Assembly: GCA_964036665.1 (NCBI GenBank)
Contig: OZ038526.1
Coordinates: forward strand, 27,528,001-27,592,000
Length of the DNA stretch: 64,000 nucleotides
Source: Gordius sp. MW1
Lineage: Eukaryota > Nematomorpha > Gordioida > Gordea > Gordiidae
Direction: 5' to 3'
Shown here: piece by piece, positions 1 to 61,910 of the stretch
Position numbering within the stretch: position 1 is the first letter of the stretch
Layout: each line of letters starts with the position of its first letter
Made by a program: the position numbers and the translations under genes
The notes under the pieces: model-generated
Told to the model about the DNA's origin: nothing
Database searches by the model: none
The model's input: the letters and a program-made list of their open reading frames with translations, nothing else

Positions 1-539
1 AACCTTTATACTATCTATATAGGTAGGAAACTTCTTCTCTGCAGCAAAAAATCTCTTTCCCGTTCTTCATCCCCTCTCTGACAGAAGAAATAACAATTAT
101 CATTGTCTCCCCATTTTGCTTAAGTAAGATAAACGCCGAACAAAGAATTCACCGACGACCCTCTTTTCGTAACCTTTATCTCCTCCCCCTCTTAACTTCT
201 CCAAACTACGATAGGGGTAATATAATGGGTGACCCTTACAGAGAATAAATACGGAGAAATATGAGATCTTCTAGCTGCTACAATAGCTCCCCTAACCCCT
301 TCCCCTCTCCTAAAAATCCTATAAATGATGCGAGGATTAGATAACCTGTCCATTTTAAGTAGCAATTGACCTAAACCCTACACTTAAAGTAGTAAATCAT
401 ACCATACCTTTGCTTCAAAAAAGGGGAACGTTGAACTATAATACGCGAGCGCTACGGCACTTGTTTTACATTATTAGTTAAGCTAGGATTAACCCTGGCC
501 CCCCCCTTCTCCTCAAGGATTATCACGGAAAGAAAGATA
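1..539. other. Upstream region of the receptor gene
   Basis: No convincing gene is visible. The stretch is T/C-rich with several short AT-rich blocks and lies directly upstream of the large receptor reading frame, so it probably holds promoter and 5' UTR. No clear TATA box, initiator or splice site could be assigned by eye. Confidence 0.4.
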
Positions 540-3500
540 ATGGTGTCGGGTGAAGATAGAGTCCATCATTCGGGCCTAGTCCTTCCCGAAATTCGATACC
601 GCGGGGCTCTTCGTGCATCGGAGGATCACGGGGATGAGATGATAATGGACAGCAAAAAACGAGCTTTATCGCGCGTTGAACCAAACGTTTTCCCCTCAGT
701 TGCTCTTCGATCTAAGAAAGAATCGTTTACCCAAGCATTAAATTCCGTGGTAGTTCCTCGATACTATTCTTCTAGTCATAAATATAATTCGTCATCACAC
801 CTCAATCTCAAGCCTGGGGACGGTCCGCCCCGGAGTGCTAGTACCCTGACTAGACTTCCCTATTTCGTTTTAAAATTGAATAGCGCCCGCCCCCATACAT
901 TCCCACTAAGGAGTCTTACAAAGAGTTTGCCAATGTTTATTGCTTCGATCATTTGCCTCTTCCTATTTTCATCAGCCCTCGGGGCTAGTGGTATTAACAT
1001 TACGTATTCCCTCATTCAAGACGAGGGTAAACCCTGTTTTCCCATGGATTCTTGCGAACGACCCGACGTTAAGTTATTTCCCGAACGAGCCGATCGCAAG
1101 TTGAGAAATTGCGAATGCGATCGCCTGTGTTCTCTGTATGGCGACTGTTGTATCGATTCTAACCGAAGCCCCACCAACGATAGCACTTCACCTTCAAGGT
1201 CATCAAGCCCCCTAAAGTCAAGTCTCTTCTCAACTCACTCCCAAACTAATTGGACTTGCGCCTACGTCTCCGGTTTTCATCACATTTACCTCGTTAAATC
1301 CTGTCCCGTTAATAGCATCCGGTACGATGCCGTGTTAGTGCAAAAATGCCAGCATCCCGATTTAAGCCATCCACTCCAGCTCATACCATACACCGATGGG
1401 CGGACTAATTACACTTACGCCAACGTCTATTGCGCCATGTGTAATTCACTGGGCGACTCTTTCGCCACGCTTACCCCTTGGACCTCTACCATAACGTGTG
1501 ATTTTAAGGTGGAAGACTCCACGTCGGTCGAACACTTTTTGGCTACGCATTTCAAATCTCCTGCGAAGGTGCTTGGACGGGACGATTTTCAAAAATTATT
1601 ACTTTGGACCGAATTGCCCATAACCCCGAATGGGCCCATTACCGGTAAATGTTGGTGGAAATTTAGTGCGCCGCCAGGCCAAAGCGTGACTAATGATGAA
1701 ACAATTCACGCGACCGATAGCATAAGGAAATGCGTACCCGACGTCATAAGCGATTGCTCCGTCGTTCATACGAACGAAATAGCTACGAGCATTAACAAGA
1801 GGGAGGAATCAAGGGCTGCCCTAGATCTCAAGTCCAAGTGCAAATCTTACACGGCTCGCGTTTGGACGGCTAGTAGGCGCGTTTACCGAAATTCCCATTG
1901 CGCCCTGTGTAACGGAGAACGGGCCAGCGATATAAGTTGTTACGACATTTTCTCCCAACCCTTACCCATCTACGCCCCGAGGTATTACTACAACAGCCCC
2001 AGGAACGCCCGATCTCACTTCAGGCTCAAGTTGGCTTGGCAAATTCTCTCGGATGGTAACGTAGCCGATCCCCTCCACAATTGTAGGCCCGGCAATTTTT
2101 GGGATCCCTTCGAAGGGCGGTGCGTCAAGTTACACCATTGCGTATCGGGTACGGGGTACGTCGCTTCGGGCCAAGACGGGTCTAGCAGTTGTCAAACATT
2201 ACCAAACACCAGCCCCCCAAGTCCCGCTCTGCCCACTTACACCGCTAGCTCAATACGATCTACGGCGTCGTCGTCTTACTTAGATCTTATCAACGTTTAC
2301 GGATCGCCAATTCCCTGTTTAAGTCCCGACCAAAAAATGCTACTTCTAGGCAACAATAGCACCGACGTGGCTGCTGTTGCCACTGCCCCAGTCATATCCC
2401 TATCTCCGCGATCTTACCATTTGATCGGGGAATCGGGTATCGAAAGGCCAGAGGTTAAAATTCACGTATCCACGACGTACGACCTCCCACAATGGCACGG
2501 TATCATTCTCGACCGCGCCACCGTTTATTTTACCTACACCACCGGGGGCCTCCCAGCCGACGCGATCGCTTTAAACGGGCGTCTCATGACCAAACCAACC
2601 CTGTTCGTTTGCGAAGATACTTTATACGCCACTCCGGCAACAAAGGGGTTGTTTCCCCACCTCCATCCAAACGACCATTACTCGCCCGAAAGGGCATCCG
2701 TTTGGGCTTATACTTGCAAGCGTAAACGCATCGTGTCCTACCTGGCTCTAGTGGTATCAGCTGCGATATATGCCTTTTACGCCATCCTATCCCTGTGTCG
2801 TATGTTCCGCCGACCCGGCCCTTACTTTGCCGACGCTCACTCTATGCTAACCCTGGTTCACGTGCTCGAATGCGCGGCCCTGAACGGTCTTCTGGTGTAC
2901 GCTCTCTTCTACTACAACAGTTTCACCCTACCACCTCCACCCACACCCAGTGTCCCCTTCCAGCCTTATCCCCATTACACGGCGGCCAACCCTTTAGAAG
3001 CATCAACTAGTCCTCCCCCCGTGCCAATCGCCTCTGATGATGATCGTTGCAAGGAATCTTACTTCATGTCGGAACATGTGGGAATTCTCATAAAATCTCG
3101 ACTTTCCGTTAACGTGCTACAACCCCTCCTGGTTTTCCTTATCTTTTCCTGTCTATTTTGGATCCTCTCTTACGCACTACACCAATTTTTCCGCCGGGCC
3201 AACGGGGCCAACCCCAAAAATAGTTATCAACAGTCCAAACATGGTGTTGGAGACTCGATCGACAATCTTAAAAAAGAAGCTGCTGCTGCGGGAGGTGGAG
3301 GAGGTGCGATGGAAAGCAGTATCATGTCGGGCTCTAGCGTTGTAGAACGCATTTCCAAGAGTCGTCCCATCATAACTTTCATCATTTTTCAATGTTCAAG
3401 TTGGTGCTTGGCCTTCCTCATGACCGCCCTCTTTTACCTAACCGCCACCCTAAGCTTAAATCGTTCACGGGGTCGTGGAAATGGACTCGGTTATTTTTTC

Positions 3501-5335
3501 GCACTCAACCAACCCCCAAGTTCGCACGATCATTATTCGCACAGCGATATCGATTACAACGATACACATGAAGTAGGTATGTGGGATACCACGGGGTCTA
3601 TAGGTACCCCAGCAGCACCTTGTTCATGTTCCTGTTTACCCGCGATCAATCGTTTTTTTGGCTTGGCCTATCTCCTCCCCGTCAATTTAGTTACCACTTG
3701 TCTCGCACTATCCCTAATCACTTGGGCCATAATTCTGGCCCTACGGCGTTACAGACTCCGTCCATCACCCAAAGCTTACTACGGGGACACTCACCCCCCG
3801 ATGGGGTCATATAATACCCCCTCGCCACCCCTATACGACGTCAGACGAGCCGAGCAACAAAACGCTCATTCACACACCCGAGGCAGCGGTAAATATACGG
3901 GGGGTAGGGGGGGAGTTGGGGCCGAAGAAGATAAAACCTCATCTTCATCCTCCTCTGGGTGCGGGGGGGCTCAGTCTTCATGTAGCGCTACGGACGACAG
4001 TTTGCTACACAACGCTCAGAACCCGACCGGGCTTCGTAATGATTATCATCCCTACGATTACTACTCCGATGGTGTTGGCAATGCCCGGACTGGATCTCTG
4101 TTATTTCCCGAAATCCATGCCATGCTCTTAGTTGCCTTGACATTCACACAATTCTTGCTGCTCTCAGCCGCTTCAGCCAGCGCCTACAAAGTGGTCGATA
4201 GGTCTTGCTCTCTGTACTGGATCTTTTTTGTGGTGCTCGGTAATTTGAAGGCCATCCTGGTTTGCGCTTCGAGGTATCGACCCCGCAAGCCGCGAATGCT
4301 CGACGACGGCAAAACTTTCAGAAGCATATCGCCCATAGCAGGTAAACGCGTCCCTCTTGCTTCTTAGAACATAAACGATTAAAAAATATTTTTTTTAATT
4401 GTTACTAATTAGTTTAATCAAAGCTTTGAGTTTTTGTAGATATTTTTGCCACATTTATTAAGCTGGTTTTATATTAAGCCTTATTTGTTAATAGTATAGC
4501 AGGTAAGTGTGTCCAGGTTTTTTTATCATTTTATTCTGAGGGACACATGGGCCTAGCCACGGGGTGGCAGGGAGGAACGGCTGCCCCCCCCCTCTAAAAC
4601 CTCATCAAATTTTATAATTAAGGCTTAAATTTTAAAAAATATCATTTTTTCCCGCCCAAAAGCATTATTGCCCCCCCCCCCCTTGATTCGAATCTTGGCT
4701 ACGCCTATGAAGGGACATAAGTAGTTAAAAATATTTTTTTAATGGTTATTTAGTTTAATCAAAGCTTTTCTGTAGATATATTTGCCATATTCGTTATTTA
4801 GCTGAGTTTATATTAAGCCTTATTCGTTAATCATACTTCTGTTAAATCGCCAATTAAAATTTTTTAGAAATGACCTTTTTTCCTTAACTCCCGTAGCTAA
4901 ATTGGGTCTGTTTATTAAACACCCTTATGATGCTCAACTATAAGTAATATTACTATCCAAAACTAAGCTTTAATCCAAAATATTTAATTAGTTTTTTATT
5001 ATCTCTTACGTAATTTTTACAAACATTTGCGCATAGGGAAAGGTGATAACAGCGGTGGGGGCTTTGGTAATAGAAGTACCGGAGCTCATCACGTTAAATA
5101 CACGTACAATCCCTTAGCCACTACGGGTTCGTACGATGTAAGCGGGGTCGTGGTCAGAACGGAGTTACCAGGTGGTAATAATCATGGCGGATACCCGACC
5201 CTTTTAAAATCATCTCCGAAATATCACGAAAGCAACTTCAAGCAACCATCTCGCAACGATGATAAGTTCATGGAATTAGCTCTGGGGGAGGATAAAGCGA
5301 GGCTGCATAGCGTTAGAGACATCGAAGTGGTTTGA
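540..5335 (+). CDS. Somatomedin-B / seven-transmembrane receptor (adhesion/secretin/Methuselah-like GPCR), two exons
   Basis: Predicted cell-surface receptor. Exon 1 is 540-4341 and exon 2 is 5037-5335; the intron is GT..AG (G|GTAAAC ... CATAG|GG) and the frame continues, giving 1366 codons. A signal-peptide-like stretch (MFIASIICLFLFSSALGAS) begins at residue 132, so the true start may be the ATG at 933 (about 1235 aa). Residues ~166-206 carry the somatomedin-B signature CECDRLCSLYGDCCID. The long ectodomain repeats a Cys motif (YCAMCN, HCALCN). From about residue 730 there are seven hydrophobic segments, for example SYLALVVSAAIYAFYAILSL (first) and SLYWIFFVVLGNLKAILVCA (seventh), separated by long low-complexity loops. 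The tail ends in IEVV, a possible class III PDZ ligand (inference). The codons are richer in G+C than the surrounding DNA. The ligand and exact subfamily are not recognisable. Confidence 0.82.
4546..4709. mobile_element. Short MITE in the receptor intron
   Basis: This 164-bp element starts CATGGGCCTAGCC and ends GGCTACGCCTATG, so its ends are inverted repeats. Both arms carry G- or C-runs (GGCAGGGAGG; CCCCCCCCCCCC). The flanks GAGGGACA and AAGGGACA match at 7 of 8 bases, which fits a hAT-type 8-bp target duplication. It has no coding capacity. At least a dozen relatives occur in the window. Confidence 0.75.
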
Positions 5336-26214: not shown

Positions 26215-26434
26215 TAATATGATTTTTTACCCTCTTTCTCACCAGGGGGGAGGGGGGTGATTTGCCCCCCCCCTCCCCATTATTTTTTACCCTCTTCTCA
26301 CACGAAGGGGGGGGGGGGGGGGAGGGGAGGGGGGTAATTTGCCCCGCCCTTTTATTTTTTACCCTCTTTCTCACCAGGGGGTGGGTGATTCCCCCCTTAT
26401 TTTTTACCCTCATTCTCATCAGGAGGGAGGGAGT
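26215..26434. repeat. GC-rich minisatellite, left arm of the foldback element
   Basis: About four to five head-to-tail units of ~45-55 bp on the pattern TTTTTTACCCTCTTTCTCAC, CAGGGGGG, GTGATTTGCCCCCC. It ends at the target duplication GAGGGAGT of the inserted hAT transposon. The same array resumes beyond that transposon at 30130. Confidence 0.8.
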
Positions 26435-26586
26435 CAGGGGCGTACGCAGGATTTTTCTGCGGGGAGGGTTTTTAAATCAGAATCATATTAATTTTACAAT
26501 TTATTTAAATACAAACACTTTCACAAAAAATATTTATTATAAACGTCATATCATATAATTTTATAAAATAAATAGTAGGGAAAAAA

Positions 26587-29500
26587 TTATTTGCGCGATT
26601 TAGATAAAAATTCATTGATTATATCTTGAGTGTCTGGAATTAAATCTCTATGAATATTCAACAAGGTCAAACCTATAAGCCTATATAAAATTAAGAGTTT
26701 TTAATAAAATGTATTTACCTCTCTTGCCCAGTTGTATTCCTCAAGTAAGTTTTAAGTCTTCTCAGCGTAGAAAAACTTCTTTCATTAGAACACGTTGTTA
26801 TTGGGAGTGTTGCTAAAATCTGGTATAACACTCTTATATTTGGATATAGAAGCAGCTTGGAATTATAATCCGACAATGCTTTTAGTGCATTAAAAGGCAG
26901 AACTTCAGGGTTACAATCTTTAAAAGATTGATACCAGAGTTTATCAGCCTCATAAATTTCTTGATTTCCATTCAAATCATCCCCATAAAAATTCGCTAAA
27001 TTCAAAAAGTTCGCCAGTTTAACTTCAGATAGCTTTACAGGTGGTTGTAGTAGTAAAGAATGAAATCCCATGAGAATTTGTTTATTCTCAAGAAACCTTG
27101 TGTCCATTTCTACCAAAAATGTGTCTAAGAATGCATTATACAGAGTTATTCTATAATAAGCCTCTGGGGTTTGTTGGACATTTCCTCTGGGAATCGAAAT
27201 CTCAAAGTCATATTGTTTTCCCATCAATGTGACATCTTTAAAAATCCTGGAAAACTCTACCTGAGAATTATTTCTAATTAATTTAATAGCTTCCACAACG
27301 TTTTCGGCCGCATTTATTGCCTGTGATAAGTCCAGGTTAATGCTTTGCAAATAAATGCTAAGATTTGAAGTATAAGCAAAGATTTGCTTTAGTGTGTGTA
27401 ATGATAACCAAAAATGGCCAGTTTTAAGTGCTGATACCAATAGCATGGCACCCGAAGAGGAATCATTGTCTGCCCCTTCACTAATCTGCTCAAGGGTTGT
27501 GATGATTGAATCTCTTAATTCAAAAAAGCGGGTTATTGCTTGATGCTTTTGAACCCATCTTGTTTCACAGAGAGTTTTTAATTTCAAATTTTTGGAATCT
27601 GAAGACTTTACAATTGAATCAAACAAATATTGCCTTTTAGGCGTTGATAAAAAATCATTCACCTTTTTAATAATCCCTATAAATTGGAAAAAATTAGATA
27701 TCAAAATTTAAAATATACCTATACAATTCCGGATATGTGAGATTTTGCAAGAATCGGCAATGCTTAAATTTAATACATGCGATGAACAGTGAATGTAGAT
27801 TGCAGTAGGATAGACATTTCTTATGTGAGTTTGCAATCCATTTTTTACACCACTCATTGCTGAAGCACCATCGTAACCTTGTCCTCTCAATTTTGTTGTA
27901 TTTATGTTCAATTCTTTTAAAGTCTTCAGGATCACTTCAGATAGGCCTTTTCCAGTCATATCATGTATATCAACATATAGCAAAAATTCCTCTTTCACAA
28001 CGATTGGTGTTGAATCCACATCTAAATATCTTACCACTAGAGCCATTTGTTCCCGAGTTGAGATATCTGTGGTTTCATCGACTAATATTGCAAAAAAGGG
28101 AGCAGCGTTTATTTTTTTTACAATCTGGGATTGTATCATATGTGATATTATAGAGATGATTTCATTTTGGATATGCGGGGAAAGATACGTTGCATTTTTA
28201 GGGCATTCTGTCAAAGCGTGGCATACTTTTTCGCTGTTTTCTGCTAAAAATATTAAAAGCTCACGGAAATTTCCTTCGTTCAGATTTTTCTTTCTTTGCA
28301 TATGAAGTGGCAACACACCATAATCAATATGACCTTTTTAAAAATTTAATTAAATGTTTATATTATATATTACCTCTAAGGGCAATCCCTTGTTTCCCAC
28401 AGAAAATGATTGTATCAATTATTATAGCGAGTGCCTCTCTTAATTTAAATTTGTTAATCCTATTTTCCTTTGATAATAGATCACATATAGAATCCTTTTT
28501 GTTCGCGTATATATTTTCAAGTGAAGTGAACATCTCAATTGAATGTTTGTGGTTTATTAGCAGAATGACGTTTAAAATCTTCCAAAGCATTTTTCCATTT
28601 TTGAAATGGACTTGTAATGAAGGCTTTTAACTCCTGATGAGATCCATATCCACCGGTCCTTTTGCCCATTACAACACAAAATTTGCAAAAAGCACCATCT
28701 AGAGGCATAGAGTAGGCCAACCATGGCCATTGTTTGAACCATGTATAGTTAAATTTGAGATTCCGTTTGCCCTTGGGAAAATCAAATTTTATATCTGACT
28801 TCCAGATTAAATCCATAAGTTTCATCTTCTGCATATCTTCTATATTTTTTTTTATAAAGTTCGATATATCATAATAATTAATATTGTTCATTAAAATATC
28901 AGGTGGTGATGTTGATGTACAAGAAGCTTGTTCCACATGAACTAAATCTAAAATTAAAATCTAACTATAATCATTTAAAAATCTTACCACTAGTACATCC
29001 TTTTTCCACATAAACTAAATCTAAAATTAACATATAACTATGCTCAGTTAAAAATCTTACCACTTGCAGATCCTTTTTCCACATGAACTAAATCTAAAAT
29101 TAACATCTAACTATGATCATTTAAAAATCTTACCACTTGCAGATCCTTTTTCCACATGAACTAAATCTAAAATTAACATCTAACTATGATCAGTTAAAAA
29201 TCTTACCACACTAGTACATCCTTTTTCCCCATGAACTAAATCGAAAATTAACATCTAATATGATCAGTTAAAAATCTTACCACTTGCAGATCCTTTTTCC
29301 ACATGAACTAAATCTAAAATTAACATCTAATATGATCAGTTAAAAATCTTACCACTTGCAGATCCTTTTTCCACATTAACTAAATCTAAAATTAACATAT
29401 AACTATGCTCAGTTAAAAATCTTACCACTTGCAGATCCTTTTTCCACAGGAACTAAATCTAAAATTAACATCTAACTATGATCATTTAAAAATCTTACCA

Positions 29501-29957
29501 CTTGCAGATCCTTTTTCCACATGAACTAAATCTAAAATTAACATCTAACTATGATCATTTAAAAATCTTACCACTTGCAGATCCTTTTTCCACATGAACT
29601 AAATCTAAAATTAACATCTAACTATGATCAGTTAAAAATCTTACCACACTAGTACATCCTTTTTCCCCATGAACTAAATCGAAAATTAACATCTAATATG
29701 ATCAGTTAAAAATCTTACCACTTGCAGATCCTTTTTCCACATGAACTAAATCTAAAATTAACATCTAATATGATCAGTTAAAAATCTTACCACTTGCAGA
29801 TCCTTTTTCCACATTAACTAAATCTAAAGTTAACATCTAACTATGATCATTTAAAAATCTTACCACTAGCAAATCCTTTTTCCACATGATTAACTTTTTT
29901 GACACAATATTTAAATATCGCGCCTTTTCTTTTATTCAAATTGATAGAGGAATTCAT
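26587..29957 (-). CDS. hAT transposase (TTF-type zinc finger, DUF4371, hAT dimerisation), multi-exon, one frameshift
   Basis: Cut-and-paste transposase. Exons on the minus strand: 29957-29864 (ATG, opening MNSSINLNKRKG, ending NHVEKGFAS), an optional micro-exon array, 28947-28374, 28333-27719, 27676-26719 and 26680-26587 (stop). The last three introns are 40, 42 and 38 nt, all GT..AG and in phase. The domains in order are a zinc-finger-like block (FCKFCVVMGKRTGG), NEGNFRELLIF, the first catalytic region ILVDETTDIS, the GQGYDGASAMSG region with SSHVLNL, and the C-terminal dimerisation region SNERSFSTLRRLKTYL ending near LNIHRDLIPDTQ. A single-base frameshift near 28545-28560 splits exon 28947-28374. 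It is otherwise intact, so recent decay or an assembly error is possible. The family resembles ZMYM1-like hAT proteins. Confidence 0.85.
28948..29863 (-). repeat. Tandem array of 33-nt micro-exons with 40-nt introns
   Basis: Twelve units with a 72-74-bp period lie between transposase exons 29957-29864 and 28947-28374. On the minus strand each unit reads acceptor (GTTAATTTTAG), exon of 33 nt, donor (GTAAGATTTTT). Intact micro-exons: 28988-29020, 29061-29093, 29134-29166, 29281-29313, 29353-29385, 29426-29458, 29499-29531, 29572-29604, 29719-29751, 29791-29823. Each starts and ends in phase 1 and encodes a version of DLVHVEKGSAS. Units at 29207-29241 and 29645-29679 are 35 nt long and their acceptor AG is mutated to CG. 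The upstream exon ends, and the downstream exon begins, with the same motif. Skipping the whole array also keeps the frame. Actual inclusion is not demonstrated by DNA alone. Confidence 0.85.
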
Positions 29958-30129
29958 ATGAAATGCATACGTTTTATAAACACAAGGAAAATTTAGGAAA
30001 AATATATTAACGCCTAAAAATACTTAATGGTTGTTGAAAATAAGAGCTCTCCATAGTTAATTAAATAGCACTCATTTTATAATATTTACTATATAATGCT
30101 AAAACCCCCCCCCCTTGCGTACGCCACTG

Positions 30130-30850
30130 GAGGGAGTTAATTTGCCCCCACCTCATTATTTTTTACTTTCTTTCTCACGTGGGAGGGGGGTGATTTGCCC
30201 CCCCCCCTTATTTTTTACCCTCTTTCTAACCAGGGGGGAGGGGGGGATCTGCCCCTCATAATTATTTTTTACCCTCTTTCTCACGCGGAGAAGGAGGGGG
30301 GTGATTTGCCCCCCCCCCACCCCCTTATATTTTACCTTCTTTCTCACACTGAGGGGAGGGGGGAGGGAGGTGATTTGCTCCCGCCCCCTTTGTTTTTTAC
30401 CCTCTTTCTCACCAGGGGGTAGGGGGTGATTTCCCCCCCCCCTTATTTTTTACCCTCCTTCTCACCAGGGGGTAGGGGGTGATTTGCCCCCCCCCTTATT
30501 TTTACCATTTTTCTTACCAGGGGGGAGGGGGGATTTGCCCCCCCCCCCCCAATAAAAATAATAAGGGGGGGCAAATCACCCCCTCCCTGTGAGATAGAGG
30601 GTAAAAAATAATAAGAGGTGGGGGCAAATCACCCCCCTCCCACCTGGTGAGAAAGAGGGTAAAAAATAATGGGGCGGGGGGCAAATCTCCCCCCCCCCCC
30701 CCTCCCCCTTTCCCCCTGGTGAGAAAGAGGGTAAAAAATAATGGGGGGGGGCAAATCACCCCCCTCCCCCGTATGAGAAAGAGGGTAAAAAATCAGGGGG
30801 GGGGGCAAATCACCCCCTCTCCCCTGGTGAGAAAGAGGGTAAAAAATCAT
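30130..30850. repeat. GC-rich minisatellite with an orientation switch, right arm of the foldback element
   Basis: About 15 units of ~45-55 bp. Up to ~30545 they read TTATTTTTTACCCTCTTTCT then GTGATTTGCCCCC; beyond ~30560 they run as the reverse complement (GGCAAATCACCCCC then GAAAGAGGGTAAAAAAT). The array is therefore an inverted pair centred near 30550 (CCCCCCCAATAAAAATAATA). The tracts of C and G vary greatly in length. Confidence 0.8.
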
Positions 30851-56847: not shown

Positions 56848-58113
56848 TCATTTAATTAAATTTTTTAACATATTAATTTCTTGAACCAAGCAGGCCACCT
56901 TATTCTTCAACATAATATTAGATTCTTTCAACAAACTTTCTTCAATCATTACATTTTTAGCTTCCTCCTTTTTCTTCTGCCTATATTTTGCTGCTGCAAT
57001 TTTGTTTTGAATTTTTTTCCTTTCCTTTGGATTAAAGGGGGATATTAAAATATCATTAGATGATATGGATGAGTAGGGGGAAGAAATGGGCTGATTGAAT
57101 GCAAAAGAACCGGGTGCTGACTTATAAAGAGACAGAGGTGATAGGGCTGATTTATTGGGGCAGGAGTTATAGTTACCAGCTAAACTATCACCTAAAGATG
57201 AGTTGCTAGTTAAAAAAGATGATGACAAACCAGCTATATCACTGTTTTCACCAAAATTATGAGCATCAAAATGTTCTGCATTATGATTTTCATAGAATAA
57301 TGTCTGTACATCCATATTGTTAATACTCTCTTCCTTAACTGCATATAAATCATCTTCAAGATCTAAATCAAAAATAGTTTCTAAGTTAGAATCATATACA
57401 CCATTTTGATTAGATTCTTTTGTAGTACTTAAACTATTTGTTTGCCGGCATAAATGTTTGTAATGATTTGGGTCATAAAGGTTATTTTCTATGAAAGTGT
57501 AAGAAGGTAGTGAGGCAGGTGATAAAGGCAGTGCTGAAGTAGTAGGAAGTGACATATGTCCTGCATGAAGTTTAGATTGATAATGAATGTAAGGTGATGG
57601 ATGCTTAAATTTGGGGTCATAATTTTCAGAATTTATAGAGGAATCTGGTGAGGGATAAAAATATGGGTTCAAAGATGGGTCATTCCTACTATCTTGATGA
57701 TTCATATAGTTAAGATGATTTGGAGCAATGCTGAAATTGGTAGAATTTGAATTAATTTTTAAATTGTCTTGTTGAATAAGTATATTGTTTGATTGAGAAG
57801 TTATTTTCTTATTCAGTTTTAACAAATCAAAATCATCAATTAGATTAATTTTATCAACATATGCAAGGCCATTGTTAAGATTAGAAAAGTCCATGTTTCC
57901 CTCAGTGTCAATAATGTCATCAAATGTTGGTTCAGAAATAAATGCTAAAAGAAGAAAGGTGAAGATATATAATTATATTTTACTTAAAAAATTATCCGGT
58001 GGCAGTTCGTTTGAATTCCCATTCAAATATATATCGATTGTTGGCGAAGTTAATAAAACGCGATTTATATCTGCATTATCATCTAGGTCTATGTCTTTTG
58101 GCCACATGTCCAT
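56848..58113 (-). CDS. ATF4: ATF4-family bZIP transcription factor, two coding exons
   Basis: Stress-response transcription factor (ATF4 / Drosophila cryptocephal family). Exon 1: 58113-57984, starting MDMWPKDIDLDD. The 39-nt intron 57983-57945 (A|GTAAAA ... TTTTAG|CA) keeps frame, and exon 2 is 57944-56848; total 408 aa. The C-terminus is a bZIP: a basic region KERKKIQNKIAAAKYRQKKK, with the N-x2-A-A-x2-[YC]-R type DNA contacts, then a zipper with leucines in SLLKESNIMLKNKVACLVQE. The middle is Ser/Asn/Pro-rich as expected for an activation region. The methionine at 57894 was not chosen because exon 1 extends the frame upstream and splices exactly. The upstream ORFs described separately support the start at 58113 and the ATF4 assignment. 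Confidence 0.88.
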
Positions 58114-60474: not shown

Positions 60475-60957
60475 TCAAATAAATATATAAACCTTAAGCA
60501 TAAAACACATTTTTTGGGATAAATTAAACAACTTTATTTGAAATATAGCAAATATGTACAAGGTACAGGAGTTGATTGACATGATTGCACCAGAAGTTTG
60601 ACCTAAACAATCTATAACATCAAAAATAAGATATACTGTACTTGAAGGTAAGGGATTTCTGATTATGAAACCCCCAGAGACCCTAAAAGGTGGTTGAGTT
60701 AGAATGTTTGGTAGAGGGCTCGGCATGATAGCAGAAGATGTTTGACCTAAACATTCTATAACATCAAAAATAAGATATACTGTACTTGAAGGTAAGGGAT
60801 TTCTGAATATGAAACCCCCAGAGACCCTAAAAGGTGGTTGAGTTAGAATGTTTGGTAGAGGGCTCGGCCTGATAGCAGAAGATGTTTGACCTAAACATTC
60901 TATAACATCAAAAATATAAAATACAGTACTTGAAGGTCTCATATTAGCAAACGGCAC
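60475..60957 (-). CDS. Unidentified ORF with 48-residue tandem repeats
   Basis: A 160-codon frame in which a 144-bp unit is repeated (starts at 60600, 60744 and a partial third at 60888). Each unit encodes PSSTVYLIFDVIECLGQTSS and a linker LPNILTQPPFRVSGGFI. The copies differ at only a few bases, so the duplication is recent. A hydrophobic C-terminal tail and an AATAAA overlap the end. On the opposite strand the unit carries a good donor (CTTGAAG|GTAAGG), so the region could instead be a duplicated exon/intron segment on the plus strand. No family recognised. Confidence 0.3.
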   Translation of the reverse strand: MPFANMRPSSTVFYIFDVIECLGQTSSAIRPSPLPNILTQPPFRVSGGFIFRNPLPSSTVYLIFDVIECLGQTSSAIMPSPLPNILTQPPFRVSGGFIIRNPLPSSTVYLIFDVIDCLGQTSGAIMSINSCTLYIFAIFQIKLFNLSQKMCFMLKVYIFI

Positions 60958-61910
60958 CGGAAAAATGTGCGATAATATAATTCGTTTTATTACATGGCGC
61001 AGTATTGCATTGGCAATTTCATTTTAGATTATATGTCGCATAACCCTAGTTGAGCTGCGTTTTAATCGAGATGAGCAGAAGCGTTAAATAAACAAGGTGG
61101 CGATTTGAAAGCGACTCGGCTCAATTTAAACGTTTATATTCCCAGAATATCATTTACAAATATTGACCTCAATAAATCAAAATGGTCTAGTAAATTAGCA
61201 GTAATCTGCCTGACAATTATTTAAAAAATTTATTTAAGTTGTGAGAATTTGTAAGAAATTGGAAACTTAGATTTTTAATAGGTAAAAAGAAATAATAATA
61301 CTTTCTCATTTTAGCCAGCATAAATTAGGCAGCATATAAACCTGAGATAAGGTCATGGGCGTTGCCAGCCATCAAATGAGAGGGGGTCGTTAACCTTTTT
61401 CAAATTTTAGCCATAATTTTAACAAATTTAAAAAAAAATGGATTTAGGGAGGCAGCCGCCACTCCTTGCCCCCTCCCCTTGGCTACGCACAGCTCGTCGG
61501 CATACAATTCTGAGTACTTATTATATTTTTATTTTATTTGCAAAAAGCTGTGACATTTAAAAATCTATTAAAAATATATACCAATATTCTTAAATTTGGC
61601 GAAATAGTTACATTTTTTTATATGGAGAGCAGATTTATTGCGCTGACATATGATTTTTTTAAATTAATCAAACGGGCAAAAATTTAAATCAATTCAAATT
61701 TGTTTATATATCCGTTAAATATTAAAACTCGTATCATTCATATGATCGGATGATCATAAAACAAAACCTCTAAACAGCAAATTTAATCACTGCGAAATTA
61801 ATTAAAATCTGACAAATTCGCTTGTAAATCTTTTATGTATGAAAATGAAAGACAATTTATTTATAAAGATTTAGATGCAATTTACTATCCATCGTATCTT
61901 TATTTTATTT
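60958..61910. other. Gene-free interval with one MITE
   Basis: Contains the MITE 61354-61491 (CATGGGCGTTGCCAGCC ... CCTTGGCTACGC, with AGGCAGCCGCC in the right arm). The remainder is AT-rich and unassigned. Confidence 0.5.

Follow-up and report, generated by a model that had tools for sequence, protein, structure and literature searches.

The stretch of DNA analysed here, hereafter the window, comprises 64,000 nucleotides of the nematomorph Gordius sp. MW1 and is part of contig C8 (OZ038526.1) of a 211.8-Mb genome. Its minus strand carries a complete transposable element of the hAT superfamily, in whose transposase gene the first two exons are separated by an array of tandem units of about 73 bp, each with an intron-like and an exon-like half (Table 1). 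The element is a member of the hAT superfamily, with a C-terminal dimerisation domain, short terminal inverted repeats, an 8-bp target-site duplication and multiple dispersed copies. Matches to the DUF4371 and Dimer_Tnp_hAT domains confirmed the hAT transposase gene proposed in a preliminary description of this DNA, and no Pfam family matched the N-terminal region of exon 2. The element resembles the DUF4371 or “zinc finger MYM-type protein 1-like” hAT group in its domains, terminal repeats and 8-bp duplication, and its best-scoring named relatives, from flies, beetles, moths, aphids, a stick insect and Gordionus, share roughly 40-49% identity. The three introns of the gene that lie outside the array were placed by reading the sequence.

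Tandem Repeats Finder delimited the array at 28927-29889, with a period of 73, 13.2 copies, 92% matches and a score of 1638. Read on the minus strand, the region holds 13 donors GTAAGATTTTTAA that bound 12 whole units between 29863 and 28988, at a spacing of 72-74 bp. Ten units combine a GT...AG intron of 39-40 nt, with its AG acceptor in place, and a 33-nt exon predicted from the splice sites, G/AT TTA GTT CAT GTG GAA AAA GGA TCT GCA AGT G, which begins and ends in phase 1 and would encode DLVHVEKGSAS or a variant of it (N, P or Y for H; CT for SA). Upstream, exon 1 terminates in ...HVEKGFAS/G, also in phase 1; downstream, exon 2 starts at 28947 with G/AT TTA, giving DLVHVEQAS. In units 3 and 9 (donors 29718 and 29280), TTTTCG replaces TTTTAG and two extra bases bring the exon to 35 nt. 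Written by type, the units run A B C D E F G B C D E H; the four-unit block B C D E is thus present twice, and units 3 and 9 go back to one event. Read unspliced, the array is crossed by no open frame of at least 60 aa. The preliminary description had counted ten intact phase-1 units encoding forms of DLVHVEKGSAS every ~73 bp, which agrees with our parsing except that the total is 12; its equation of 40 nt with the minimal intron length is not borne out, as the same gene has a 38-nt intron and unit 9 of another copy (L010, see below) a GT/AG stretch of 31 nt. Chance can be excluded as the source of the pattern, since the same units occur in nine other parsed copies of the element and a genome-wide search with the unit pattern returned 165 matches, against 2 for a control pattern.

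Table 1. Features of the array-bearing hAT element (positions in the window)
Feature	Position	Strand	Remarks
Complete hAT-superfamily element, carrier of the array	26435-30129	minus	3695 bp; terminal inverted repeats and 8-bp target-site duplication
Terminal inverted repeats	26435-26448; 30129-30116 (reverse strand)		CAGGGGCGTACGCA / CAGTGGCGTACGCA; 13/14 positions equal
Target-site duplication, right side	26427-26434		GAGGGAGT, 8 bp
Target-site duplication, left side	30130-30137		GAGGGAGT, 8 bp
Exon 1	29864-29957	minus	94 nt from ATG; MNSSINLNKRKGAIFKYCVKKVNHVEKGFAS/G; 31 residues; phase-1 end
Array, 12 units	28988-29863	minus	Intron 39-40 nt + exon 33 nt; units 3 and 9: 35 nt, without AG acceptor
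Final intron of the array	28948-28987	minus	40 nt
Exon 2, N-terminal region	28374-28947	minus	Cys/His-containing segment; frame broken in the window copy
Predicted intron, exon 2 / DUF4371 exon	28334-28373	minus	40 nt; GTAATA...AAAAAG
Exon 3, DUF4371	27719-28333	minus	PF14291, E 4.6e-25
Predicted intron	27677-27718	minus	42 nt; GTATAT...TTATAG
Exon 4, hAT C-terminal dimerisation region	26719-27676	minus	PF05699, E 7.5e-08, above cut-off (open reading frame 26715-27707)
Predicted intron	26681-26718	minus	38 nt; GTAAAT...TATATAG
Last coding exon	from 26680	minus	Open frame ...GLTLLNIHRDLIPDTQDIINEFLS

On both sides the element is flanked by a G/C-rich tandem repeat (30140-30850 and ~26220-26430) that contains the target site; its period is ~53-57 on the left, and the motif TTTTTTACCCTCTTTCTCACC is found on both sides.

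Relatives in the same genome were collected by DNA searches with exon 2, about two units and the 5' end, together with the pattern search; the searches score only the best candidates, so copy counts are lower bounds. Units were parsed for one copy per locus; C1:10.1 Mb, with its four near-identical segmental copies, is represented by one of these. The resulting unit numbers are 12 in the window, 10 each at C1:15.17 Mb (L010) and C1:28.04 Mb (L011), 12 in the C1:10.1 Mb copy (7 + 5 on either side of another inserted element), 4 in L018 (one interrupted by an insertion), 2 in L016, 2 plus a partial third in L069, 1 each in L017 and L021, and at least 1 in L067. A collapsed or expanded repeat in the assembly is hard to credit as an explanation: tandem arrays are error-prone in assemblies, but two or more 73-bp units, differing in variants and numbers, lie on each of five large contigs (C1, C5, C6, C7 and C8).

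Other relatives carry no unit at all. In L020 and L033 a single 36-nt intron occupies the homologous place, between exon flanks that are not repeats of one another; that of L033 starts with GTTAA instead of GTAAG. Five copies of a group that we call subfamily B (L024, L028, L030, L037 and L038) likewise have one phase-1 intron there, of 38 nt, with unrelated flanks. Since these zero-unit relatives hold a single intron at this position, it predates the array. A phylogeny built from exon 2 (FastTree, midpoint root; several nodes other than those given here are below 0.9; L067 and L069 are without exon 2 and absent, and L019 is included without a unit count) puts L020 and L033 outside the unit-bearing group, which has a support of 0.991. 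Within the group, L021, with one unit, branches first, the window copy, L010 and L011 stand together (0.997), and L018, L017 and L016, with four, one and two units, are intermediate between them; units have therefore been both gained and lost. In exon 2 the window copy, L010 and L011 share 98-99% identity, yet the number and order of their units differ.

Several derivatives of the array-bearing element were also observed. The region C1:10105229-10110845 (L066 and L015) and three near-identical places reaching to C1:10206000 are four near-identical segmental copies of an array-bearing element; in the copy that was read throughout, the array is split by a 1,457-bp insertion in one of its introns, an element whose ends are hAT-like (CAGGGGCGTAGCCAGG) and which has TTCTAAAT on either side. 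L072-L082 are dispersed short derivatives with the 5' end of the element, one intron and part of a unit, most of which continue into a common foreign tail resembling the end of another hAT (L073 and L081 have a different tail); they look like a composite that spread as one piece. L070 and L071 are very short, with little beyond an end piece on each side of about one unit, and look like deletions ending within the array.

The sequence of the unit points to its origin. Over its first eight bases (ATTTAGTT), the microexon corresponds to the beginning of exon 2 in the zero-unit copy L020 (ACTTAGTT); its remainder corresponds to the last part of exon 1 in related copies (CATGTAGAACAAGAACCTGCTG and variants). 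Judged by these matches, each microexon is a chimera of exon 2 start and exon 1 end, and we infer that the units arose by tandem duplication across the older intron; L020, L033 and the five subfamily B copies are relatives that lack the duplication at this site. The preliminary description had derived the array from the exon junction itself; this holds, with the refinement that the intron predates the array and that the microexon is chimeric. In the proposed scheme, a first tandem duplication, with one end within exon 1 and the other within exon 2, would place the beginning of exon 2 directly before the last part of exon 1. This would add an exon and an intron with both splice sites retained, and without loss of frame provided that the length of the exon part is divisible by three. 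Whole units and blocks would later be gained and lost by unequal exchange or slippage.

A second array at the same intron was found in L023 (C3:17.94 Mb), a member of subfamily B, where donors recur every exactly 209 bp and the unit, a 38-nt intron with a 171-nt exon (57 codons, in frame), is present four times. The unit junction is also present in L022, which ends abruptly upstream, probably truncated by another insertion. A long match to this subfamily B junction was obtained at 35 loci, 33 of which have it in a single copy; two further loci gave short matches only. The 209-bp amplification is independent of the 73-bp array. Two in-frame amplifications would be expected with a chance of one in nine if frame were irrelevant, and the in-frame second array is for this reason a weak point when taken alone.

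On balance, we read the array as a minisatellite whose unit holds a whole short intron of spliceosomal type and a 33-nt phase 1-1 exon, and whose units are probably spliced individually, each contributing a tolerated repeat of 11 residues close to the N-terminus of the transposase. Parsing gave 54 rows, of which L067 u2, whose match crosses a deletion end, was dropped, so that 53 entered the splice-site test; one further unit, with a transposon inserted in its upstream intron, brings the exon lengths to 54. Of these, 48 are 33 nt, two 39 and one 30, and three break the frame (35, 35 and 32). The 53 intron lengths are 40 (27 cases), 39 (19), 38 (5), 37 (1) and 31 (1), and in 24 of them the departure from 40 is not divisible by three, in many cases through shared descent. 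None of the 54 exons has an in-frame stop, whereas in the shifted frames stops occur in 48 and 9 of the 48 exons of 33 nt. Independent frame-changing indels, counted by eye across the parsed copies, number 12 in introns and 2 in exons (binomial p 0.016; p 0.038 against substitutions), or 11 and 2 without the insertion-interrupted unit (p 0.026 and 0.063). Finally, all three frame-broken exons follow an intron without GT or AG, compared with 3 of the 50 others (p 0.0009; p 0.0075 with the duplicated unit counted once). Put to the refuting condition named in the preliminary description, units that freely take on frame-breaking lengths in related copies, its idea survived, albeit not strongly: such lengths occur in 3 of 53 units, through two events, each beside a lost splice site.

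A different explanation, which we consider possible but less probable, is that the array is a neutral minisatellite within one long intron: the whole 916 bp would be removed from the first donor to the last acceptor, or the copies would be dead and never expressed, and the unit structure would have no coding meaning. Its outer splice sites are intact and joining them preserves the frame. However, exons of frame-changing length lie only next to dead splice sites and, on the event count, frame changes are less frequent in exons than in introns; the second array likewise arose in frame. A 916-nt intron with 12 inner donors would also be unusual, because the three other introns of the gene measure 38-42 nt.

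A number of observations weigh against unit-by-unit splicing, and several of them suit the single long intron. When introns were scored by net length and the interrupted unit was left out, the indel difference became 7 versus 2 and lost significance (p 0.15; 0.29 against substitutions); the indel test is thus suggestive at best of frame keeping, and its dependence on event counting slightly lowered our confidence in the preferred reading. The association with dead splice sites reflects two independent exon events, and some of the dead introns are copies of each other. GT and AG are each present in 51 of the 54 rows (50 of 53 without the dropped row) and are not specially conserved, 26 and 19 of the 72 dinucleotides of the unit being better conserved, which argues against strong selection on every site. 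The microexon residues gave no sign of purifying selection, with 3 synonymous and 22 non-synonymous distinct changes (possible 22:69, p 0.27), and substitution density is equal in microexons and introns (27/33 vs 33/40). Every array copy examined for integrity is damaged: the window copy in its frame, L011 by a stop and L010 by an internal deletion, while the C1:10.1 Mb copy, L016 and L018 carry stops and gaps, and L023 one stop (L017, L021, L067 and L069 are partial or were incompletely read). In the window, exon 2 is open in two different frames (open reading frames 28535-28960 and 28363-28626) and its segment measures 625 bp, as in L015, versus 627 in L010-L014; the frame is open in L011 where that of the window copy breaks. 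Because of this break the window copy cannot make a full transposase, and some array copies are non-autonomous and could have been mobilised in trans.

The ratio of non-synonymous to synonymous substitution rates (dN/dS) of the transposase exons, calculated against the window copy, adds to both sides. Values of 0.37 for the C1:10.1 Mb copy, 0.39 for L018, 0.51 for L016, 0.50 for L010, 0.35 for L017 and L021, and 0.14-0.15 for subfamily B imply a period of coding in the history of these lineages. Less favourably, L011 reached 1.31 (on 18 differences), and zero-unit L020, at 0.52, is no different from the array copies.

A microexon whose length is mostly kept and whose sequence is free is best read, from these comparisons, as a tolerated spacer rather than a domain. 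At introns of about 40 nt, splice sites are probably paired across the intron. Each intron of the array would accordingly be removed singly and most microexons included, each lengthening a poorly constrained N-terminal stretch by 11 residues; as each unit brings its own intron, the mRNA would stay readable at any unit number. For the window copy, this predicts an mRNA in which exon 2 is preceded by ten repeats (110 residues), since units 3 and 9, having lost their acceptor, would be skipped. Units that lose a splice site would drop out of the mRNA and then decay. Expansion was most likely tolerated rather than selected.

The preliminary description had gone further and proposed a regulated splicing cassette, in which a choice of 0 to 10 microexons yields length variants or inhibitors of the transposase. 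The ten intact units are all phase 1-1, so any subset could be skipped without loss of frame; still, we judge regulation improbable, given that the residues are unconstrained, that zero-unit relatives have spread too and that the window copy is unable to make the full protein. With introns of ~40 nt, constitutive inclusion of the microexons is at least as likely as regulated choice. Rather unlikely, too, is the broader idea that the junction is a coding hot spot at which an exon + intron unit, of 73 or 209 bp, is repeatedly amplified in frame, so that an N-terminal tail varying in length between copies, through unit number or splicing, alters transposase activity or escapes the element's own inhibitors, with selection acting on frame and not on sequence.

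Other hAT elements have cis-acting subterminal repeats bound by their transposase, and the units might be such repeats, their exon-like look being a by-product. The array starts 266 bp from the 5' end of the element, and L070 and L071 retain about one unit though most of the element is gone. That subfamily B, L020 and L033 spread without units, and that observed lengths differ between the exon half and the intron half of the unit, makes this very improbable.

Comparable gene structures have been described in several systems. In collagen, titin PEVK and tropoelastin, exon + intron units of symmetric phase are tandemly duplicated, much as in the array; unlike in these host genes, the number of units here varies between copies of the element and the residues are unconstrained. 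Parasitic flatworms possess micro-exon genes (MEGs), which are portrayed as runs of tiny exons (PMC7653826) whose lengths are divisible by three, such that skipping keeps the frame; frame-neutral short exons are thus common to both. Long introns and a secreted product are further MEG features (PMC10526429), whereas the array introns measure 31-40 nt, the product is a transposase, and exon and intron together form one 73-bp tandem repeat. A closer likeness is to intron gain by tandem duplication over an exon-intron boundary, which yields an extra intron with inherited splice signals (PMC4974935, PMC3443670). The hAT array appears to follow the same step; unlike the single gain described in potato, the step was repeated up to 12 times, and twice independently, in a mobile element, where splicing is predicted. 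Introners, or intron-generating elements, also tie transposable elements to intron multiplication (PMC9860276); here, by contrast, introns multiply in tandem inside the transposon's own gene, without insertion elsewhere. SP7-like fungal effectors were considered as a parallel and dropped, as passages of PMC11333574 describe a conserved intron before the first repeat and not exon-intron repeat units.

No tandem microexon array in a transposase was found in the titles and abstract starts of open-licence literature, an absence that carries little weight. Nor did a simple self-comparison of 224 distinct related proteins, many of them partial, disclose a general habit of repeats in the DUF4371 hAT group: two had repeats, and in one of these (P0256) a stretch of 25 residues close to the N-terminus is duplicated once.

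Some further features of the window and genome are recorded for completeness. Within a 182-aa open frame at 60475-61023, which has no Pfam match, 144 bp (48 residues) are repeated in tandem for 2.5 copies, with 94% matches; this coding repeat, at 60580-60937, lies inside one open frame and needs no introns. A single 1310-aa open frame with several hydrophobic stretches spans 435-4367, GC-rich for the window and also without Pfam match. A 374-aa open frame at 56848-57972 encodes a bZIP protein (PF00170, PF07716) and is likely a host gene. Rfam and tRNA scans of the window returned nothing. The COX1 of the 14,798-bp contig C12 shares 97% identity with that of Gordius sp. VVA-2019 and 92% with that of Gordionus alpestris (Nematomorpha, Gordioida), in keeping with a gordiid hairworm. 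Many COX1-like stretches, one of them nearly full-length, occur on nuclear contigs (C8:2829490-2830827 and others); the matches number 24 when the mitochondrial contig is included.

The copies of this element form a graded natural series of 0, 1, 2, 4, 10 and 12 units, in which tandem duplication over a tiny intron multiplies introns and exons without loss of frame, and in-frame amplification of a unit has occurred twice at one site. If the units are indeed spliced one by one, the array would offer a ready test of how the spliceosome deals with ten or more near-identical 33-nt exons between 40-nt introns, and of how introns can shelter coding minisatellites from frameshifts.

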